Shown: positions 49,168 to 59,484 of the stretch, in pieces
Layout of the letters: the number at the start of each line of letters is the position of its first letter
Position numbering within the stretch: position 1 is the stretch's first letter
DNA from: Alteracholeplasma palmae J233
GTDB taxonomy: Bacteria; Bacillota_I; Bacilli_A; Acholeplasmatales; Acholeplasmataceae
Direction of reading: 5' to 3'
Length of the DNA stretch: 64,000 nt
Assembly (NCBI RefSeq): GCF_000968055.1
Contig: NC_022538.1
Coordinates: 1,213,499 to 1,277,498 of the forward strand
Notes under the pieces: generated by a model
Told to the model about the DNA's origin: nothing
Databases searched by the model: none
Seen by the model: only the letters and a program-made list of their open reading frames with translations
Made by a program: the position numbers and the translations under genes

Positions 49168-49839
49168 TTAGTTTTTACTAAATACTTCAGTAATTTTAGG
49201 GATATCCTTTTTTCTTCCAAAAATGAATATCTCATCATTTGGCATAAGCATGGTTTCTTTAGTAGGGATAATCATTTTCTTATCTCTTTCAATGACTAAA
49301 ATATTAATTTTAAATTTAGATCTAGAATCTAATTCTGTAATAGCAAGTGGTTCAAAATTTTCTTCAATTCTAATTTCGTAAACATCAAAGTCATTTTTAA
49401 TATTAAAATAATCCACGACATTACCAGATGCTACTTTATTAGCAATTCGCTCACTAGCAATTGAAAGTGGTGATATAACATCAGTAGCACCTACAAGCTT
49501 TAAAACCTCAACATAATCTTCTTCATCAGCTCTTGCAGTAATTTTTTCAATACCCAATTGTTTAAGCTTAATAATAGTCATAATACTAGAACTCAAGTTG
49601 GTTTTCTCGTTTTGTCCAATTGCTACAATCGCATGATCTACTGAGGCAATTCCAGCAGCTTTTAATGCATCTTCATTAGTTGAATCCACTATATAAACAT
49701 TCCTAGTTAATTCTCCGGCTTTTCTAACAGATTCTTTATTTTTGTCTATAGCAATAATATCAACATTCATCTTACTAAGTCTTTCAACTAAATTGAGACC
49801 AAATCTACTTAATCCAATGATAGCAATGCTTTTTTTCAT
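49168..49839 (-). CDS. ktrA: Potassium uptake regulator KtrA/TrkA
   Basis: The cytoplasmic ring subunit that gates KtrB, 223 residues. The RCK-N domain has IIGLSRFGLNLVERL (nucleotide-binding GxGxxG-like), DIIAIDKNKESV and a TRADEEDYVEVLKLVGATDVISP stretch. The RCK-C domain covers residues ~140-223, ending in NDEIFIFGRKKDI. It binds ATP/ADP or NAD(H). It is the last gene of the V-ATPase operon, 9 bp after the channel gene. Confidence 0.93.
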   Translation of the reverse strand: MKKSIAIIGLSRFGLNLVERLSKMNVDIIAIDKNKESVRKAGELTRNVYIVDSTNEDALKAAGIASVDHAIVAIGQNEKTNLSSSIMTIIKLKQLGIEKITARADEEDYVEVLKLVGATDVISPLSIASERIANKVASGNVVDYFNIKNDFDVYEIRIEENFEPLAITELDSRSKFKINILVIERDKKMIIPTKETMLMPNDEIFIFGRKKDIPKITEVFSKN

Positions 49840-49848
49840 CTTTAATAC

Positions 49849-51153
49849 CTATCCAATCATCATTTTTTCTTCAATATACTCAATGTTATGTAATTCTTTT
49901 TTATGCCATTCACTATTAAATAAACTTAAAATTGTAAGTGGTCCTAATCGACCAATAAACATTAAAATACAAAGTGTTAATTTTGAATAATCACTTAAAG
50001 TAGGGGTTAGATTTTTACTTAACCCTGTATTTGAGAATGCTGAGACAATTTCAAAAACTGCTTTTTCTAGGTTAACATGATCAAATGTTAATACTACAAA
50101 CGTTGATGAAATAATGATTAATAATGACACTGCAAGTAAAGTAGAAGCTTTATGCCTTGTTTCATTATTGATTAATCTTTGATATGTTATCACTTGTTTT
50201 CCTTTTGCATAACTAGGTATTCCTTTAAATATCGTATAGATGGTCGTTGTTTTAATACCGCCACCCGTTGATGATGGCGATGCTCCAATAAACATCAAAA
50301 TAATTAGCATAAGTGTTGCAACAGCTGAAATAGCGCTGATATCAATTGTAGTAAAACCCGCAGTCCGTGCTGTCACACTCAAGAAAAAAGATTCTAGCCA
50401 GGAAAACGATTTACCACCTAGATTAGAAAACTTAAACACTAGCATGCCCAAAATCCATAAAAGCAAATTAACTTTGAGTACAATTTTAGAATGGGTTGTC
50501 AATTTCTTATATGACTTTTTTTCTATTAAGTCATTAATAACAATAAAACCAATACCTCCTAACATAATTAAAGCCGCTGTATTGATGTTAAGTAATATAT
50601 GTGCTTGATAGTTTTGTAAACTAATCGATCCTAGTAAATCAAATCCTGCATTATTAAATGCAGATATAGCATGAAAAGCACTTATTCCAATAGCAGTTAC
50701 TGTGTCATACTGTGGTATAAAAACAAATAAATTTATAATAAAACCTGTAAATTCAATGCATAGTGTAAAAGTAACAATTCTAACAACAAGACTAACCATA
50801 CCTGATAAATCATTTTGATTTAAATTTTCCTTAATTAAAACACGATTACTGATACCTATTTTAGCACCAATAATATACATAATAAAAACAGAAATTGTCA
50901 ATACACTAAGTCCACCAATTTGAATTAAAACTGCCAATACTACTTTCCCAAAAGGTGATAAGATAATTGACAAATCCGAAACGGGAGAAAGTCCTGTGAT
51001 AGTAATTGCTGATGTGGATACAAAGAATGCATCTATAAAATCCAATGACCCTTTTCCTGTTTTTGATATAGGTAATAATAATAAAATCGTTCCTATCATA
51101 ATAATCACAAAGAAAGATAGTGTAATCATTACATACGGCGATATTTTTTTCAT
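49849..51153 (-). CDS. ntpJ: Potassium transporter KtrB / NtpJ
   Basis: A 434-residue K+ channel-like subunit of the Ktr/Trk family. It contains four pore-loop repeats with filter glycines in SAITITGLS, FNNAGFDLLG, ARTAGFTTID and FSNTGLSKN. It lies directly after the V-ATPase D gene, 4 bp away. In Enterococcus hirae the Na+-ATPase operon also ends with a KtrB-like gene, ntpJ, so the arrangement is shared. It imports K+, probably together with Na+, while the pump exports Na+. Confidence 0.93.
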   Translation of the reverse strand: MKKISPYVMITLSFFVIIMIGTILLLLPISKTGKGSLDFIDAFFVSTSAITITGLSPVSDLSIILSPFGKVVLAVLIQIGGLSVLTISVFIMYIIGAKIGISNRVLIKENLNQNDLSGMVSLVVRIVTFTLCIEFTGFIINLFVFIPQYDTVTAIGISAFHAISAFNNAGFDLLGSISLQNYQAHILLNINTAALIMLGGIGFIVINDLIEKKSYKKLTTHSKIVLKVNLLLWILGMLVFKFSNLGGKSFSWLESFFLSVTARTAGFTTIDISAISAVATLMLIILMFIGASPSSTGGGIKTTTIYTIFKGIPSYAKGKQVITYQRLINNETRHKASTLLAVSLLIIISSTFVVLTFDHVNLEKAVFEIVSAFSNTGLSKNLTPTLSDYSKLTLCILMFIGRLGPLTILSLFNSEWHKKELHNIEYIEEKMMIG

Positions 51154-51157
51154 CCTA

Positions 51158-51790
51158 TCACATCTTTCTATTCTTATCTAGAATAATCTCTTTACTCTTA
51201 ATCATTCTAATTGTATTGCTTCTTTCTAAATCACTAAGCTTCATCTTAATTGAATGTATCTGTTCGTTAATCTCTTTTAATATAATGTTTTCAATGGCAT
51301 TTACCCTTCTTTTTGATTTCTCAATTTCAACTAGCATACTTTCTATTTGACTTTCAAGTACTGCTAAATTTAATATTTCCGGTAATAAGGAGCGCCCATA
51401 TTTTAAAAGTATATCAAATGATGCTGATGTCTTAAAATAGCTATAATTATTTTCTACTACTGTTTCTCCTGATTTTATTGAAGCAAATTCAACTCCCATA
51501 ACTTTGCTATAGCTGTATGTGATATCCTGTATTCCTTTCGTCTCATTTAAATAATTATGAATATCTACTGTATCCATGTCTATTGCAGTTTCAAGATAAC
51601 ATTTTAGAAACTCATGAACTTTAACTTCTAATTGATTACGTTCTATTTTATATGTCTTTACAAGATATATAAATTGATGCATGAGTTCATCCTGTTTATC
51701 TTTTAGAAGTTTATGTCCTCTTTTCGTCGTTTCAAACTGTTTTTTAAGTTTCATCAGTTCCATTCTTGTTGGATTAATAGTTTGACTCAT
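51158..51790 (-). CDS. ntpD: V-type ATPase subunit D
   Basis: The central rotor stalk, 210 residues, mostly two long helices. It begins INPTRMELMKLKKQFETTKRGHKLLKDKQDEL, the family signature, and the C-terminal helix has IESMLVEIEKSKRRVNAIENIIL. It ends in TGA, which confirms that TGA is a stop here. It is 3 bp after the B gene. Confidence 0.96.
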   Translation of the reverse strand: MSQTINPTRMELMKLKKQFETTKRGHKLLKDKQDELMHQFIYLVKTYKIERNQLEVKVHEFLKCYLETAIDMDTVDIHNYLNETKGIQDITYSYSKVMGVEFASIKSGETVVENNYSYFKTSASFDILLKYGRSLLPEILNLAVLESQIESMLVEIEKSKRRVNAIENIILKEINEQIHSIKMKLSDLERSNTIRMIKSKEIILDKNRKM

Positions 51791-51793
51791 ATT

Positions 51794-53167
51794 CTATGAT
51801 TCCTTATAATACTGCTTAATAAAGTATGGATCAATTCTTTTTAATTCACTCTTAGGTAAAATACTTAATAATTCCCATCCGATAGAAAGAGTTTCTTCAA
51901 TACTTCTGTTTGTGTCAAAGCCCTGTGCTATATATTTTTTTTCAAAGGCATCAGCAAACTGTGCATACTTTTGATCAATCATAGAAAGAGCCGATTCGCC
52001 TAAAATAAGTGATAGTTCCTTGGCATCTTTACCTCTTGCATAAGCTGCAAAAAGTTGATTCATAGTATCAGCGTGATCCTCTCTAGTTTTACCTTTTCCA
52101 ATTCCCTTATCTTTTAAACGTGATAATGATGGTAATACATCTATCGCTGGTATAATGCCTTTAGCTGATAAAGTTCTTGATAAAATAATCTGACCTTCTG
52201 TAATATATCCTGTTAAGTCTGGTATCGGATGTGTCTTATCTTCCTCTGGCATAGTTAAAATAGGAATTTGTGTAATAGTTCCTTCTTTACCTTTAACACA
52301 GCCTGCTCTTTCATAAAGAGATGACAAATCTGTATACATGTATCCCGGATACCCTCTTCTTCCAGGAACTTCTTTTCTTGCAGCACTAATTTCACGTAAT
52401 GCTTCTGCATAATTAGTGATATCTGTCATAATCACTAAAACATGCATACCTAAATCATATGCTAAATACTCTGCTGCAGTAATTGCCATTCTAGGAGTTG
52501 CGATTCTTTCTATTGCAGGATCGTTTGCTAAATTAATAAACATAACTGTTCGGTCGATTGCATCTGTTGCCTCGAATACCTCATTAAAATAATTTGCTTC
52601 TTCAAAAGTAATCCCAATAGCAGCAAAAACTACAGCAAATTTTTCATCTTGTCCGCGAACAGTTGCTTGTTTAGCAATTTGTGCAGCTAATTTATTATGG
52701 GTTAACCCTGAGGCCGAAAAAATTGGTAACTTTTGCCCTCTAACTAACGTATTAAGTCCATCTATTGCTGAAATACCTGTCTGAATAAATTCATTTGGAT
52801 ATGTTCTTGCTACTGGATTTAATGGTACACCATTAATATCAATATATTTTTCTGCAATCATATGTCCTTTTTTATCAATTGGTCTACCTAATCCATCAAA
52901 TTTTCTTCCAAGCATAAGTGGTGATACACCAAAACTTAAGCCCTCACCTGTGAAAATTGCTTTTGCATCATTAATTTTAAGACCTTGGCTATTATCAAAA
53001 AGTTGAACGACTGCTTTATCTTTATCAATCTCAAGCACTTTACCCAATCTTTCAGTACCATTTTTTTGAACAACTCTTACCAATTCATCGTATTTAATAT
53101 TTGCAACTTTTTCTATGACCATAAGTGGACCAACAACTTCTTTAATTGTCTTATATGCTCTAATCAT
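51794..53167 (-). CDS. ntpB: V-type ATPase subunit B
   Basis: The non-catalytic nucleotide-site subunit of the V1 head, ~457 residues. It starts [15 protein letters not shown], as other NtpB proteins do, so I prefer the ATG at 53167 over 53176. Conserved parts are [36 protein letters not shown], in which the Walker A loop is replaced by SASGLTHN as is normal for B, and [34 protein letters not shown]. It overlaps the A gene end slightly. Confidence 0.96.
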
Positions 53168-54935
53168 AAATTTCATTGACTCCTTTTCTTAATTGTTCAA
53201 ATTGATCTATCAATTCAAGTTCAATACTTAAAATCTCTTTTTCTATTTCATTTTCTTCAACATACTTTAAGTGCCCTATACGTTCATTGACTGGTAATAC
53301 TTCAATTCGCTTATAGTCAACATGATTTTCTGTTGCTAAAAGTGCTAAATCAAACCAGCTTAAAATAATTCTAAGCATTGCATATTGTTTTTCTAATGAA
53401 GTATACGTATCTACCTTATGAAAAGCATTCTGGTGAAGATAGTCTTCTCTGATCATTTGTGCAACTTGTAACTTAACTCTATCCTTAGGACTTAATGAAT
53501 CAATACCTACTAATCTCACAATTTCAAGAAGTGCTGTTTCATCTTGCAAGATTACTCTGACCTTCTTAACTGTTTCCTCCCATAAAGGATAAGTTAAATT
53601 ATTAAACTGTTCAATATCAGTATCATACAGTGAATAACTTTTTAGCCAATCAATTGCAGGAAAGTGTCTTTTATATGCCAATCCCGCACTAAGCCCCCAA
53701 AATACCTTAACAATTCTTAGTGTTGCTTGACTCACTGGCTCTGATGTATCTCCACCTGGGGGTGAAACAGCACCAATTGCGGTAATTGATCCAATGCGTT
53801 CTTTTCCAAGTGTTTCAACCATTCCAGCTCTTTCATAAAAATCTGATAATCTAGATGCAAGATACGCAGGATATCCTTCTTCTCCTGGCATTTCTTCAAG
53901 TCTTGAACTCATTTCTCTTAAAGCTTCTGCCCAACGACTTGTTGAATCTGCCATAATTGCAACACGATATCCCATATCTCTAAAATATTCAGCAATTGTA
54001 ATACCTGTATACATTGAAGCTTCTCGTGCAGCAACTGGCATATTAGATGTATTTGCAATAAGTACTGTACGATTCATTAAAGAAAGCCCTGTTTTAGGAT
54101 CAATTAGTTCTGGAAATTCTCTTAAAACATCAGTCATTTCATTACCACGTTCCCCACAACCAATGTATATGATAATATCAGCATCAGCCCATTTAGCAAG
54201 TTGATGCTGTACAACTGTTTTTCCAGAACCAAACGGACCTGGAATTGCTGCAATACCACCTTTTGCAATTGGGAATAATGTATCAATAACCCTTTGCCCT
54301 GTTACCATCGGTTCTTTTGGAGCTTTTTTAACTTTATAAGGTCGTTTAATCCTAACCGGCCAAACTTGTAGCATTGTCATTTTAAACGTTTCATTTTCTG
54401 ACTTAATAGTTGCAATTTCATCTAAAATCGTGTATTCACCCTCAGAAAGTTTTGATATAATTCCTTCTTTTCCAACTGGTACCATAATTTTATGTATAAC
54501 TGCTTTTGTTTCTTCTACTGTACCAATGATATCACCTTCACAAACATACGTTCCATTTTCTACAATAGGCTTAAAGTGCCACTTTTTCTCTCTATTAAGT
54601 TTTGCAACTGATATACCGACAGGTATAAATGCTCCATGTTTTTCATAAATACTTGTAAGTGGTCTTTGAATACCATCAAAAATACTTTCAATAAGCCCAG
54701 GTCCAAGCTCAACAGATAATGGATGATCTGTTAATTCAACCGGTTCTCCCGGGCCTATACCCGCTGTTTCTTCATATACTTGAATGCTTGCCAAATCTTC
54801 TCTTAGTTCTATAATTTCTCCAATAATATGCTTGTTGCCAACATGAACAACATCATATACTTGTGCATTTCTCATGCCATCTGCAACAATAAGAGGTCCT
54901 GATATCTTAACAATTTTTCCTTTTATTTGACTCAT
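53160..54935 (-). CDS. ntpA: V-type ATPase catalytic subunit A
   Basis: The 591-residue catalytic subunit hydrolyses ATP. Walker A is [11 protein letters not shown], with [16 protein letters not shown] supplying the catalytic Glu, and [37 protein letters not shown] follows. The A-specific insert is near residues 110-200. The start is fixed by [21 protein letters not shown]. Complete for the bacterial V/A-type family. Confidence 0.97.
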
Positions 54936-54948
54936 CTCTTACCTCTTT

Positions 54949-55251
54949 CTAAAGTAAATCAATACCAATTGATTTTTTAATACGTTCTTTCATATCTAAA
55001 ACTTTATTCCCTATATTTTTTGATTCTAAAGGAAGTTCCAAAAATATAGGATATACTCCTTTTTTTTCCTGTTGATACACTTTAATTAAATCCTTTAACT
55101 CACTATCATATGCAATAACTTTCACATAGTGATTTAATTCTTTTAAAACTTTTATTAATTGCTGCTTTTCATCAATAATAAAGACTTCAAAACCAACAGC
55201 ACTTAAGGCTTCTGATTCTTTTTTTGTACTAATAAAAACTAAGTTATTCAT
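54949..55251 (-). CDS. ntpG: V-type ATPase subunit F (NtpG)
   Basis: A ~100-residue Rossmann-like subunit attached to the central stalk: NNLVFISTKKESEALSAVGFEVF, VKVIAYDSEL and VYPIFLELPLES. I take the ATG at 55251 because GAGGTGTGTG precedes it; the ATG at 55263 has no site. Gene position between C and A matches the E. hirae order. Confidence 0.88.
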   Translation of the reverse strand: MNNLVFISTKKESEALSAVGFEVFIIDEKQQLIKVLKELNHYVKVIAYDSELKDLIKVYQQEKKGVYPIFLELPLESKNIGNKVLDMKERIKKSIGIDLL

Positions 55252-55957
55252 CACACACCTCATTTAGATAATATATTGATTTAATTTGGTTAATTTGGTT
55301 TTTTCTCATCACAATATAGTAAATTAATATTTCTAATAAGTTTGTACTATAAGCATAACTTTTTATATACTCCAGATATTGCTTAGATAGTTTTCTATCA
55401 ATTTTTAAAACACTATCTGCTATATCAACATCAGTATTAAGTTCAGATTTTGTAAATTGAATTAATTCTTTTTTACCTTGAATATATGCAGTTTCTAATC
55501 TATCAATTTCATATTGATTTTGCTTTAACATATTAGATTTAAAGACTAATACATCTTCATTATTTTCACATAATCTATACGCCATAATAATATTTTTAAC
55601 TGAGTTTCTATAACTTATAATCTCAGATAATATATTTTGCGGCTTTATTTCATTGTATATTGTATTATAAAAATCAACTGATTTTTTCTGATTTGAAAAA
55701 AAGTATTGATATACTAAATGCTCTTTCCCAATATATGATGATATTTCATATTTTAAAGCTTCATCTAGACTTTTTAGTCCAAGTTTAAAATCTGAATGCT
55801 CCTCTATGAGAATACCATCATGATATAAGTATCTTAGTAAGTCCTTTTTTTCCATTGTTTTTAAAAGTTCATAGGTTTCCTTAGTGTATAGAGTTGTTAT
55901 CTTGGAATTTAGAAGACCAAGTAAATACTCATCATTCATTACCATAAAATTTTTCAT
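55244..55957 (-). CDS. ntpC: V-type ATPase subunit C
   Basis: This helical subunit links the rotor ring to the central stalk. With the ATG at 55957 (MKNFMVMNDEYL) it has 237 residues; extension further up would run deep into the E gene. That is shorter than the usual ~330 residues. It is assigned mainly by position and by features such as LLRYLYHDGILIEEHSDFKLGL and IVMRKNQINQIKSIYYLN near the end, the latter resembling the family C-terminus. Confidence 0.8.
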   Translation of the reverse strand: MKNFMVMNDEYLLGLLNSKITTLYTKETYELLKTMEKKDLLRYLYHDGILIEEHSDFKLGLKSLDEALKYEISSYIGKEHLVYQYFFSNQKKSVDFYNTIYNEIKPQNILSEIISYRNSVKNIIMAYRLCENNEDVLVFKSNMLKQNQYEIDRLETAYIQGKKELIQFTKSELNTDVDIADSVLKIDRKLSKQYLEYIKSYAYSTNLLEILIYYIVMRKNQINQIKSIYYLNEVCDE

Positions 55958-56546
55958 AAACTTCTTTCTCTCGATTTTTTTTATACTCATCCACAATTTG
56001 TTTGTAGTCAAAAATCAAGTCAAAATCATCCTTAACCACGATAAAACCTTCCTTGAAATTGAGATTATCTGTTTTAAGTTTAAACTTAAAATTCTTATTT
56101 TTCTTATTAAGTAAATCTAGATCATCTTTATCTTTTTTACTAGAAAAAGCCTCTAAGTATTTATCCATATTTTGACTTGATACATAAATTATTTCATCAC
56201 CAAAAATTTCATCCACATTAACTAGTTTATAAACCCAGTTGCAAAGTTCTTTTTTATCTAATTTAGTAATATATTCATAAACTTTATCAAATAATGATTC
56301 TACTTGAATTACTTTGGTTTCCTTTTGAAAACTGTTAAGTTCCGCTTCTTTTTTCTTTTCAAACATTAAAATATCGAGGTCGCTTTTTTCTTGAAATTTT
56401 TTTAAAGTATCTTTGACTTCTTCCTTGATTTTATTAAGTGCATCATGTTTTAAAGTTTCAATTTCTTGTGTAGTTTGTTTCTCAATCTCTAAAGATTTAA
56501 GTTTACTTTCTATAACAATTCTCTCATGAAGTGCTCTATCATTCAT
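55932..56546 (-). CDS. ntpE: V-type ATPase subunit E
   Basis: Peripheral stalk subunit of ~204 residues: a long charged N-terminal coiled coil (LHERIVIESKLKSLEIEKQ to about residue 90) and a globular C-terminal domain that ends with the GFIVVKDDFDLIFDYKQIV element. The ATG at 56546 follows GGAGTCTATT and is a better start than the TTG at 56558. Confidence 0.9.
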   Translation of the reverse strand: MNDRALHERIVIESKLKSLEIEKQTTQEIETLKHDALNKIKEEVKDTLKKFQEKSDLDILMFEKKKEAELNSFQKETKVIQVESLFDKVYEYITKLDKKELCNWVYKLVNVDEIFGDEIIYVSSQNMDKYLEAFSSKKDKDDLDLLNKKNKNFKFKLKTDNLNFKEGFIVVKDDFDLIFDYKQIVDEYKKNREKEVYEKFYGNE

Positions 56547-56558
56547 AATAGACTCCAA

Positions 56559-57032
56559 TTAAATGCTAATAGCACTATACATTAAAATACTTACTAAAAG
56601 TGCCAAAATTGCATATGTTTCAACAATTGCTGTCATAGTCATACCACGAGCTGACATATTAGGTTTTTTAGCAGTCATAGCAATTGCGCTTGCAGCCATT
56701 TTTCCTTGGTAAATACCTGATACTAAACCAACTACCGCAATTGGTAGTGTTGATGCAAAAAGCGATAATCCCTGTGCATCTGTAATTTGAATTGGTGTTC
56801 CTCCAACAAGCCCCACTTTAACTAAAATCAAAATTGCTAACAAAAAGCCATAAATACCTTGCGTACCGGGTAATGCTTGCAAAATCAATACTTTACCAAA
56901 AAGTTCTGGTTTCTCTGAAATAACACCTGCTGCTGCTTTCCCTGATAGAGCAACTCCAATTGCTGATCCAATACCTGCAAGTCCAATACTAAGTGCTGCT
57001 CCAATTAATGCATAAACTAATCCTGTTGTCAT
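56559..57032 (-). CDS. ntpK: V-type ATPase proteolipid subunit K (c-ring)
   Basis: The 157-residue double-hairpin proteolipid has four membrane helices. The ion-binding Glu is E138 in TAIVETYAIL. The residues that bind Na+ in the E. hirae ring are also present at the matching places: L54, T57, Q58 and Y61 in QALPGTQGIYG, and Q109 in IYQGK. This favours Na+ rather than H+ as the coupling ion. It is the fused, two-hairpin type as in E. hirae, with Gly instead of Glu in the first hairpin. Confidence 0.96.
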   Translation of the reverse strand: MTTGLVYALIGAALSIGLAGIGSAIGVALSGKAAAGVISEKPELFGKVLILQALPGTQGIYGFLLAILILVKVGLVGGTPIQITDAQGLSLFASTLPIAVVGLVSGIYQGKMAASAIAMTAKKPNMSARGMTMTAIVETYAILALLVSILMYSAISI

Positions 57033-57033
57033 T

Positions 57034-58926
57034 TTATTTTTTCTCCTTAATTATTTCATCTATATATTTAAACTGATATTCAAATGGGGTAAAAACAGTA
57101 CCTCCACCCTCGTAAAACTTTCCAAAAAACTCTAAATATTGTAGTCTTCCATCATGCACATATGCTGATAAAAGCCCCATTACAAAGTTAAATATATGCC
57201 CAACTAAATAAACAATAGTAGCTAGAATAAATCCAAATATACCTCCAGACACCATATCAGCCAACATATTCATTGTAAATGCAATGACTGCTGTTGATAA
57301 ACTTAAAGCAAGTATTCTTGAATAACTCAAGATGTCACTTAAATAATTTGTTATACCATAAAGTCCACCTAAGCCACTTAATGCCTTATTAAATATTCCT
57401 TTTTGATTATGACCCTTGAAGACTAAAATCATTAAAAATCCTAATATAATCATAGCTATCCCTATAATATTAGGCTTAACCAATATAAATAAAACTATGC
57501 CTAAAAGTATTAATATCCAACTTAACCCCTCAGATACCGCCGTTAAATATGATTTTTTACGTACTTCTATGATTATTTTAAGAACTAATCCAGAAATAAT
57601 ATGTAATACGCCAATCGCCAGAGATGCGATTAACATAGGAAGCGGATCTTTAATGGGTTCTAAAACAATAGAGGTTAAATTTGGGTTGCCCATCCATATT
57701 CCAATCGTATTCAACAAATCAAATTTAGCTCCAAAGAAACTACCAAATAGTATCCCAAAAATCACAGATGACACCCCAGAGTACGCAAAGACTAAAACAA
57801 GTTTTTTAAGTTCTCCTTTGGGTTTTTTAAATTTAACAAATAATGCAAAGAATATAACCATTGCAAGACCATAACCAATATCTCCCATCATTAACCCAAA
57901 GATAAGCCAATACCATATAGACATAATTGGGTTTGGATCTATTTCGGTGTGAGATGGAGCAGAATACATATTAGTAATTGTTTCAAATTGTCTGATAAAT
58001 TTATTATTTTCAATATATGTTGGTATTAAATCATTTTCTTCTATATCAATCTCTTCAATTTCACAAATCATTTTTTTGTTAAGTTCTTCTCTTAATTGCT
58101 CCACTTGATTAGAGGGTAACCATCCTTCCATATAAACCGTTTTTTCAGTGTGCTCTAATTTAACTAGTTTTTCTGTCATTTTATTTATTTTGTAATCATA
58201 GTAAAATTTAAGTGTATTATTATCTTTACTTAATTCTTTTAATCTTGATTCAATATCTTTTAATTTAGCTTCTTGTAAAATTGTATGTTTTTTGAGTCTA
58301 TTTAATTCATCCGGAATCAAAATATCCAACCTAGGAATCTCTATTTTTTTAATTACTGAATTGATAAAATTTATTTTACTTTGATATTGGTCCTGTTCTA
58401 AAACCAAAATACAATATTGTTTTTGATCTAATCTAGCGTATAATTCAACCATAATATTTTGTTGTTTCAAACTATCCATGATTTCTTCATGTTCTAGTTC
58501 ATTCCAATACCCAAATATGACTTTAACTCTCTTTAAGTCCAGTAAGTCTTTAGTATAAACATCTAAACTTTCAAATGGTATGAGTAATCCAAATTCATTT
58601 AACATGTTTTTATTTGATTCAGTAAGTTCTTTTTTTCTACGATGCAATTCATCTAGTTCTTCAAGTACTTTTTCTGCCTTTATTGCAATTTTTCCAAAAT
58701 CTTCTATTTTGACTTCTTTGTATTCAAAAAATTTTTTCTTAGTATACTTTTCTAAATTGATAATATGATTCTCAACATATTTTAAAAACTGTTCATCCTC
58801 GGTTAAAATCTTTTTTTGTTCACTGCCAGCAAGCATAACTCTTCCTTGCTCATGAATTTCACTGACAAACAAATGTTGGTTTTCTTGATGTGTAATCACT
58901 CTAATTTTTTTCACTGGAATAATCAT
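57034..58926 (-). CDS. ntpI: V-type ATPase subunit I
   Basis: The 630-residue stator a-subunit has a soluble N-terminal half with long coiled coils (residues ~60-300) and a C-terminal half with about seven or eight membrane helices, beginning near SIWYWLIFGLMMGDIGYGLAM. The essential arginine is expected in the YLSDILSYSRILALSLS helix, which matches the family. It forms the ion half-channels with the K ring. It overlaps the preceding gene by 4 bp. Confidence 0.95.
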   Translation of the reverse strand: MIIPVKKIRVITHQENQHLFVSEIHEQGRVMLAGSEQKKILTEDEQFLKYVENHIINLEKYTKKKFFEYKEVKIEDFGKIAIKAEKVLEELDELHRRKKELTESNKNMLNEFGLLIPFESLDVYTKDLLDLKRVKVIFGYWNELEHEEIMDSLKQQNIMVELYARLDQKQYCILVLEQDQYQSKINFINSVIKKIEIPRLDILIPDELNRLKKHTILQEAKLKDIESRLKELSKDNNTLKFYYDYKINKMTEKLVKLEHTEKTVYMEGWLPSNQVEQLREELNKKMICEIEEIDIEENDLIPTYIENNKFIRQFETITNMYSAPSHTEIDPNPIMSIWYWLIFGLMMGDIGYGLAMVIFFALFVKFKKPKGELKKLVLVFAYSGVSSVIFGILFGSFFGAKFDLLNTIGIWMGNPNLTSIVLEPIKDPLPMLIASLAIGVLHIISGLVLKIIIEVRKKSYLTAVSEGLSWILILLGIVLFILVKPNIIGIAMIILGFLMILVFKGHNQKGIFNKALSGLGGLYGITNYLSDILSYSRILALSLSTAVIAFTMNMLADMVSGGIFGFILATIVYLVGHIFNFVMGLLSAYVHDGRLQYLEFFGKFYEGGGTVFTPFEYQFKYIDEIIKEKK

Positions 58927-59231: not shown

Positions 59232-59261
59232 TTGTATATCCTTTCCTATTTTTTGTAAAGC

Positions 59262-59326
59262 AAAAAAAACCTTGTATTTCAAAGGTCCTTGCAGCTTATG
59301 ATTCTTTTTTATACCACAAGGACTTT
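59262..59326 (-). promoter_or_regulatory. Attenuator-like leader of the V-ATPase operon
   Basis: Four short segments can pair in exclusive ways on the minus strand. Segment A is at 59317-59326, B at 59281-59291, C at 59280-59285 and D at 59270-59274. C:D is a small terminator followed by eight T's (59262-59269), 31 nt before ntpF. A:B is a 10-bp stem with a bulge that uses up C, so it would prevent C:D. The stop codon of the leader peptide (59325-59327) overlaps A, so a ribosome there would block A and favour termination. This is the classic layout of translation-coupled attenuation; the signal sensed is unknown. Confidence 0.65.
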
Positions 59327-59420
59327 AGTCGTTGTGGTGTGATATCTCTGATGAATCATCACGAAGACGAACCATCATAAAAACATAAATATAGTCATTA
59401 CTAACTTGATTGTTTGCCAT
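59325..59420 (-). CDS. Putative 31-aa leader peptide
   Basis: An ATG at 59420 with AAAGATGGTGATCACA ahead opens a 31-codon frame: ANNQVSNDYIYVFMMVRLRD, then SSEISHHND and TAA. It begins about 29 nt after the predicted transcription start and ends within the first arm of the attenuator. No run of one amino acid stands out, but HHND precedes the stop. Confidence 0.5.
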   Translation of the reverse strand: MANNQVSNDYIYVFMMVRLRDDSSEISHHND

Positions 59421-59455
59421 TGTGATCACCATCTTTCTAGTTTAAATATGATGCT

Positions 59456-59484
59456 ATTATATAACTATATTATAAAATTGTAAA
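59456..59484 (-). promoter_or_regulatory. V-ATPase operon promoter
   Basis: TTTACA (59479-59484) and a perfect TATAAT (59456-59461) with a 17-nt spacer on the minus strand. Start expected near 59449, which gives a leader of about 218 nt before ntpF. Confidence 0.8.

Follow-up and report, generated by a model that had tools for sequence, protein, structure and literature searches.

In enterococci and clostridia, Na+ riboswitches stand before V-type ATPase genes (PMC9337991), and in E. hirae Na+ and/or alkaline pH induces the ntp operon (PMC12604602). In leaders of the mef(E)/mel type a stalled ribosome results in read-through (PMC4335068), in ErmDL stalling occurs when Leu occupies the P site and the second Arg the A site (PMC8298421), and MifM, which needs an acidic DEED cluster, stalls at several codons (PMC13183943; PMC6037786). 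For A. palmae itself, a survey lists a V-type Na+ ATPase without the atpC subunit (PMC4221730), and we found nothing on the leader described here in the open-access literature.

The genome of Alteracholeplasma palmae J233 is a single contig of 1,554,229 bases, and the stretch of 64,000 nucleotides that we analyzed (the window) contains a leader with a 31-codon frame directed toward V-ATPase and KtrBA genes. We read this leader as a ribosome-arrest leader-peptide attenuator of a Na+-type V-ATPase-KtrBA operon, with a probability of roughly 0.68, and the best reading of its place among known systems is that it represents a new nascent-peptide arrest family in which cation-transport genes come under attenuation. 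Leader-peptide attenuation of this operon had been proposed in a first-pass annotation; comparison with a related genome supports the proposal, with the switch redrawn as B:C against A:B plus C:D.

The leader and its operon

The promoter, ribosome site, 31-codon frame, segments A to D and T8 tract of that annotation are all present on the minus strand (Table 1). A frame with a ribosome site lies between promoter and hairpin/T8 in two genera, and the synonymous substitutions described below suggest that it is translated. Downstream, the genes run in the order stalk subunit, I, K, E, C, F, A, B, D, TrkH/KtrB-like and TrkA/KtrA-like. A family search gave no match for the first of these, subunit F was identified weakly, below the Pfam cut-off, and subunits E and C were assigned by position only. 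At the subunit C position there is a 255-aa open frame (window 55244-56011, minus strand) with a sub-threshold Pfam match to an unrelated family, which may be a divergent subunit C.

The ion specificity of the enzyme can be judged from its rotor. In an alignment with 2bl2, subunit K is identical at the LPGTQ, Gln and Glu ligand positions, which we take to be the Na+ ligands, and the V-ATPase of this operon is therefore likely a Na+ pump.

Table 1. Features of the leader, its operon and the second peptide copy; positions are those of the window except in the last row
Feature	Position	Strand	Basis or remark
Promoter TTTACA-17-TATAAT	59456..59484 (-35 TTTACA 59484-59479; -10 TATAAT 59461-59456; 17 nt between)	-	11/12 consensus
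Ribosome site of leader peptide, AAGAUGGUGA	59426..59435	-	sequence; GAAAGATGGTGA kept in G004
Leader peptide MANNQVSNDYIYVFMMVRLRDDSSEISHHND, 31 codons	59325..59420 (ATG 59420 to TAA 59327-59325)	-	
Conserved arrest-like core, codons 10-26, YIYVFMMVRLRDDSSEI	59343..59393	-	synonymous changes
Segment A, 5' arm of A:B, overlaps peptide codons 28-31	59328..59338	-	
Segment B, 3' arm of A:B and 5' arm of antiterminator B:C	59313..59323	-	
Segment C, antiterminator arm, 11 bp with B	59285..59295 (as terminator arm 59290-59282)	-	
Segment D	59273-59265	-	
Predicted C:D terminator hairpin and T8 tract	59262..59290 (T8 59269-59262)	-	
V-ATPase-KtrBA operon	59231 to 49168	-	
First operon gene, putative V-ATPase peripheral-stalk subunit (NtpF/H position), 102 aa	58923..59231	-	position and length only
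V-ATPase subunit I	57034..58926	-	NCBIfam PRK05771 models, E 3e-95
V-ATPase subunit K, membrane rotor, probably Na+ type	56559..57032	-	best PDB match 2bl2 (E. hirae NtpK)
V-ATPase subunits E, C, F, A, B, D	51158..56558	-	A, B: NCBIfam; D: Pfam
KtrB/TrkH-like and KtrA/TrkA-like K+ uptake genes, operon end	49168..51153	-	order same in G004
Second peptide MKEPILMNYFVNFIFVYMMVRLREDSQ, 27 aa	L091:3802-3885 = G000:C1:1142801-1142884	-	

Competing stems and the position of the ribosome

A:B and C:D had been put forward as mutually exclusive, but the two can coexist (computed energies -11.9 and -7.9 kcal/mol), and the exclusive alternative is the antiterminator B:C, in which GUCCUUGUGGU pairs with GCUGCAAGGAC over 11 pairs at -14.2 kcal/mol and rules out both of the others. 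Because B:C is the exclusive partner of two compatible stems, the arrangement is the classic 1:2, 2:3, 3:4 layout, with the end of the peptide overlapping segment 1. The C:D hairpin of the window is weak, made up of four C-G/U-A core pairs and pairs to the T tract, and a consensus terminator scan did not call it (-7.9 kcal/mol with T8, against -12.5 in G004, the related genome described below). As score we took whichever of A:B and B:C was the weaker duplex, given a C arm able to pair with D, in 1000 dinucleotide shuffles of each leader. None of the shuffles of the window leader reached the observed 13.5 (maximum 8.5), and in a separate run none of those of the G004 orthologue reached its 10.0 (maximum 8.9), so that the stems exceed chance in both. 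As a side observation, a CCUUU in the C-arm region can form 5 bp with an AAAGG in the ribosome site of the first gene (59241-59288, minus strand), a pairing too weak to judge.

The consequences of translation were modeled by placing a ribosome at each codon in turn and folding the RNA left free on its downstream side, with the edge of its footprint either 14 or 17 nt past the first P-site base. With no ribosome, or with the P site at codon 22 or earlier, A:B is formed and C:D has a probability of 0.70-0.88 in the window and 0.82-0.84 in G004. In the window leader, a P site at codons 25-28 for the 14-nt edge, or at 24-27 for the 17-nt edge, abolishes A:B and raises B:C to 0.97-0.99, with one transition codon on each side of this zone. 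In G004, B:C reaches 0.36-0.55 at codons 26-28 or 25-27, peaking at 0.55 at codons 26-27 or 27-28 depending on the edge, and is at most 0.14 elsewhere, while C:D falls to about 0.3; since the G004 antiterminator attains only about 0.5 at equilibrium, kinetics would have to help. A ribosome whose P site has moved on to codons 30-31 occludes B, which restores C:D to 0.75-0.84. B:C is favored only in the middle zone, so expression of the operon would require a ribosome to linger at about codons 24-28. In both species this switch position coincides with the end of the conserved peptide core at codon 26, and the conserved segment (codons 10-26) lies within tunnel length of the predicted stall at codons 24-27.

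If this model holds, the default fold of the leader RNA would be A:B with C:D behind it, and transcription would end at T8. A ribosome that finished the peptide and sat at its stop codon would cover A and B, C:D would again form, and the operon would stay off. Under the inducing condition, the nascent [YF]I[YF][VI][FY]MMVRLR[DE]DS would slow or arrest the ribosome when its P site reaches about codons 24-27, masking A and freeing B to pair with C, so that C:D could not form and RNA polymerase would read into the operon. Arrest by the peptide and termination at C:D are both inferences.

The same RNA logic would serve an amino-acid starvation attenuator, in which slow decoding of particular codons, not nascent-chain arrest, places the ribosome on A, and the productive P-site window, being several codons wide, would suit such a mechanism. 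The A-site codons at the pause, however, specify Glu, Ile, Ser or Leu, and His or Asn, with no run of a single residue, and not all of them are common to the two species. The conserved part of the peptide precedes the pause and sits within the tunnel, as arrest predicts, and the targets are ion transporters, all of which makes starvation quite improbable as the signal.

An antibiotic-responsive attenuator, in which R-L-R stalls macrolide- or ketolide-bound ribosomes as in the ErmDL, ErmK and MefE leaders, is suggested by RLR itself, a known +X+ arrest motif (PMC8298421), and by mef(E)/mel, whose transcription attenuation is driven by the peptide MTASMRLR (PMC4335068). The P site equivalent to the ErmDL stall is codon 19, however, and at that position the model gives A:B 0.91 and C:D 0.71, the off state. 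Stalling at R-L-R is thus disfavored, since a +X+ macrolide/ketolide leader should turn a stall at R-X-R into read-through and here the model predicts termination. Conservation also reaches beyond RLR on both sides, and the target genes are not resistance genes; we consider an antibiotic signal very improbable.

Conservation of the peptide and its second copy

The suggestion that relatives be checked for conservation of stems and peptide was borne out before one orthologous operon, the only sister operon found. In a DNA search of 61 genomes (A. palmae and 60 relatives), the one strong match to the leader beyond A. palmae came from G004, which belongs to the same family but to a different genus. 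It spans almost the entire leader at 69% identity; the subunit I proteins of the two operons share only 45% identity. The G004 leader directly precedes the orthologous operon, in which gene order is the same through KtrB and KtrA, and it has identical promoter hexamers with 17-nt spacing in the same place, the same ribosome site, and a peptide, MATVIEHVNYIYIFMMVRLRDDSSEILNHRI, equal in length and register to that of A. palmae.

Within the core (codons 10-26), 7 codons differ between the two species and 6 of these differences are synonymous, compared with a simulated synonymous share of 0.157 (P ~1e-4). The core YIY[VI]FMMVRLRDDSSEI is thus maintained through synonymous changes, whereas codons before and after it have mostly changed their amino acid and the N-terminal third is not conserved. 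By this comparison of codons, the core is under peptide-level selection.

The G004 stems are predicted at -12.3 (A:B), -12.9 (B:C) and -12.5 kcal/mol (C:D). A:B keeps 9 of its 10 pairs, one by a two-sided change, B:C keeps 10 of 11, four by one-sided changes, and C:D has one two-sided change from C-G to G-C. The covariation that had been proposed as a check is present to the extent that 8 of the 11 changed pairs, among 30 in all stems, still pair, but it is thin, with 2 two-sided changes, because the V-ATPase-type leaders in the data number only two.

A phylogeny of 15 subunit I proteins places the two operons that carry the leader together as sisters (support 95/96). The second V-ATPase subunit I gene of G004 groups, weakly, with a genus-mate (85/85) and lacks the leader motif, and the V-ATPase operons of genus-mates and of most relatives are without the leader. 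Given the sister grouping and the motif-free second copy, the leader belongs to one operon lineage and not to the family as a whole. The presence of two subunit I genes in G004 (L089, at G004:C1:490700-494400, and L090), of which only the leader-bearing one groups with A. palmae, hints at transfer or an old duplication.

A family-wide pattern search also recovered the motif core FIFVYMMVRLREDS elsewhere in the A. palmae genome, before a calcium/sodium antiporter gene (331 aa; TIGR00367 above cut-off; Pfam Na_Ca_ex). This second peptide (Table 1) ends 39 nt before the antiporter start codon and has its own promoter-like site upstream. Since it uses different codons from the V-ATPase leader at most motif positions, the two resemble each other at the peptide level. 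The antiporter leader has neither attenuator nor terminator, and without a terminator the peptide would have to act by another route. The antiporter ribosome site is 0.47 to about 0.7 unpaired, which predicts weak control, and strong sequestration of that site was rejected on these values. In place of codon 25 the antiporter copy has a stop codon, which would fit a stall with the P site at codon 24 in all three peptides. Farther upstream are genes for a P-type cation ATPase and for a two-component system, KdpDE-like by eye.

Small transporter proteins exist, KdpF among them, and in the antiporter copy RLRED comes after a hydrophobic stretch, PILMNYFVNFIFVYMMV; the frame could accordingly encode a microprotein with a function of its own, as a regulator or a small subunit of a transporter, and the RNA stems would then be incidental. 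The hydrophobic run of the V-ATPase copies, at 8-10 residues, falls short of a membrane span, however, and the N-terminal third is not under conservation. The stems beat all shuffles in two genera and stand in fixed register with the core, and a microprotein alone leaves the RNA unexplained, so we regard this alternative as unlikely.

A profile built from the three peptides, which scores its own members at E 1e-10 to 1e-13, found no other copy in overlapping sets of 160 genomes of the order (best other match E 0.0123), 395 of the class (0.0398) and 392 of the phylum (0.006). Phages and plasmids (tblastn) and viral contigs likewise yielded no copies, and no variant peptides were seen before V-ATPase or antiporter genes among the loci examined in family genomes. 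A strict degenerate pattern gave 10 matches among GTDB representatives, scattered over unrelated phyla, which were judged to be chance without individual inspection.

A possible signal and the relation to known systems

The arrest-peptide attenuator that we favor needs an inducer, and this most plausibly relates to cation status, with Na+ or alkaline pH the leading candidates because the E. hirae ntp operon responds to them. Na+ in particular is made plausible by the Na+ riboswitches of enterococcal and clostridial V-type ATPase genes, by the calcium/sodium antiporter as second target and by the conserved Na+ ligands of subunit K. The same riboswitches (PMC9337991) would suggest that the leader is itself a riboswitch, for Na+ for example, and not a peptide-controlled attenuator. 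Rfam searches of the A. palmae and G004 leaders, at loose thresholds too, returned chance-level matches only, the Na+ riboswitch covariance model RF03071 had no match in the leader or in either genome while its control worked, and conservation is at the peptide level with synonymous changes; a riboswitch here is extremely improbable.

A broader proposal, possible but doubtful at present, is that the motif defines an arrest-peptide family through which the translating ribosome senses cation state (Na+ or the Na+/K+ balance) and switches on at least two unlinked loci, V-ATPase-KtrBA by transcription attenuation and the antiporter by a translational route. If this were true, a nascent-peptide sensor would join the short list of bacterial readouts of internal cations, and a Na+ V-ATPase operon, elsewhere under a Na+ riboswitch, could be run by a leader peptide. 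Since the motif is short, portable and found at two loci, inducer and arrest would be accessible in vitro with a 31-codon construct.

Among known systems, the E. hirae ntp operon resembles that of A. palmae in gene content, including a KtrB-type gene (PMC12604602), and no leader-peptide attenuator for it is reported in the open-access literature that we found. The Na+ riboswitch RF03071 is also leader RNA controlling Na+ V-ATPase operons and meets the same physiological need (PMC9337991), but it senses directly through RNA without translation and is absent from A. palmae and G004. MifM, too, has a conserved core whose acidic residues lie close to where the ribosome stalls, yet it shows no evident sequence homology to our peptide and is a membrane protein that senses YidC, whereas the A. 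palmae peptide would act on transcription. At 31 aa, given the length of the ribosome tunnel, the latter cannot emerge fully before the pause point, which argues against membrane-insertion sensing.

The tna operon is Rho-dependent, with tryptophan as its signal, while the A. palmae leader has a predicted intrinsic terminator instead of Rho. What the two would share is control of a downstream operon by arrest of a short nascent leader peptide, as with TnaC (PMC8429421). Closest in construction are the mef(E)/mel and erm(K)/erm(D) attenuators, which are Gram-positive-type leaders and likewise combine a promoter, a short RLR peptide and competing stems; the stems end in an intrinsic terminator, in A. 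palmae a predicted one. Their peptides, however, are 8-14 aa long, drug-dependent and stalled at RLR itself, whereas the A. palmae core spans 17 residues, its predicted pause lies 4-7 codons past RLR and its targets are cation transporters. Within leader-peptide attenuation, the A. palmae peptide would thus stand as a new candidate arrest peptide.
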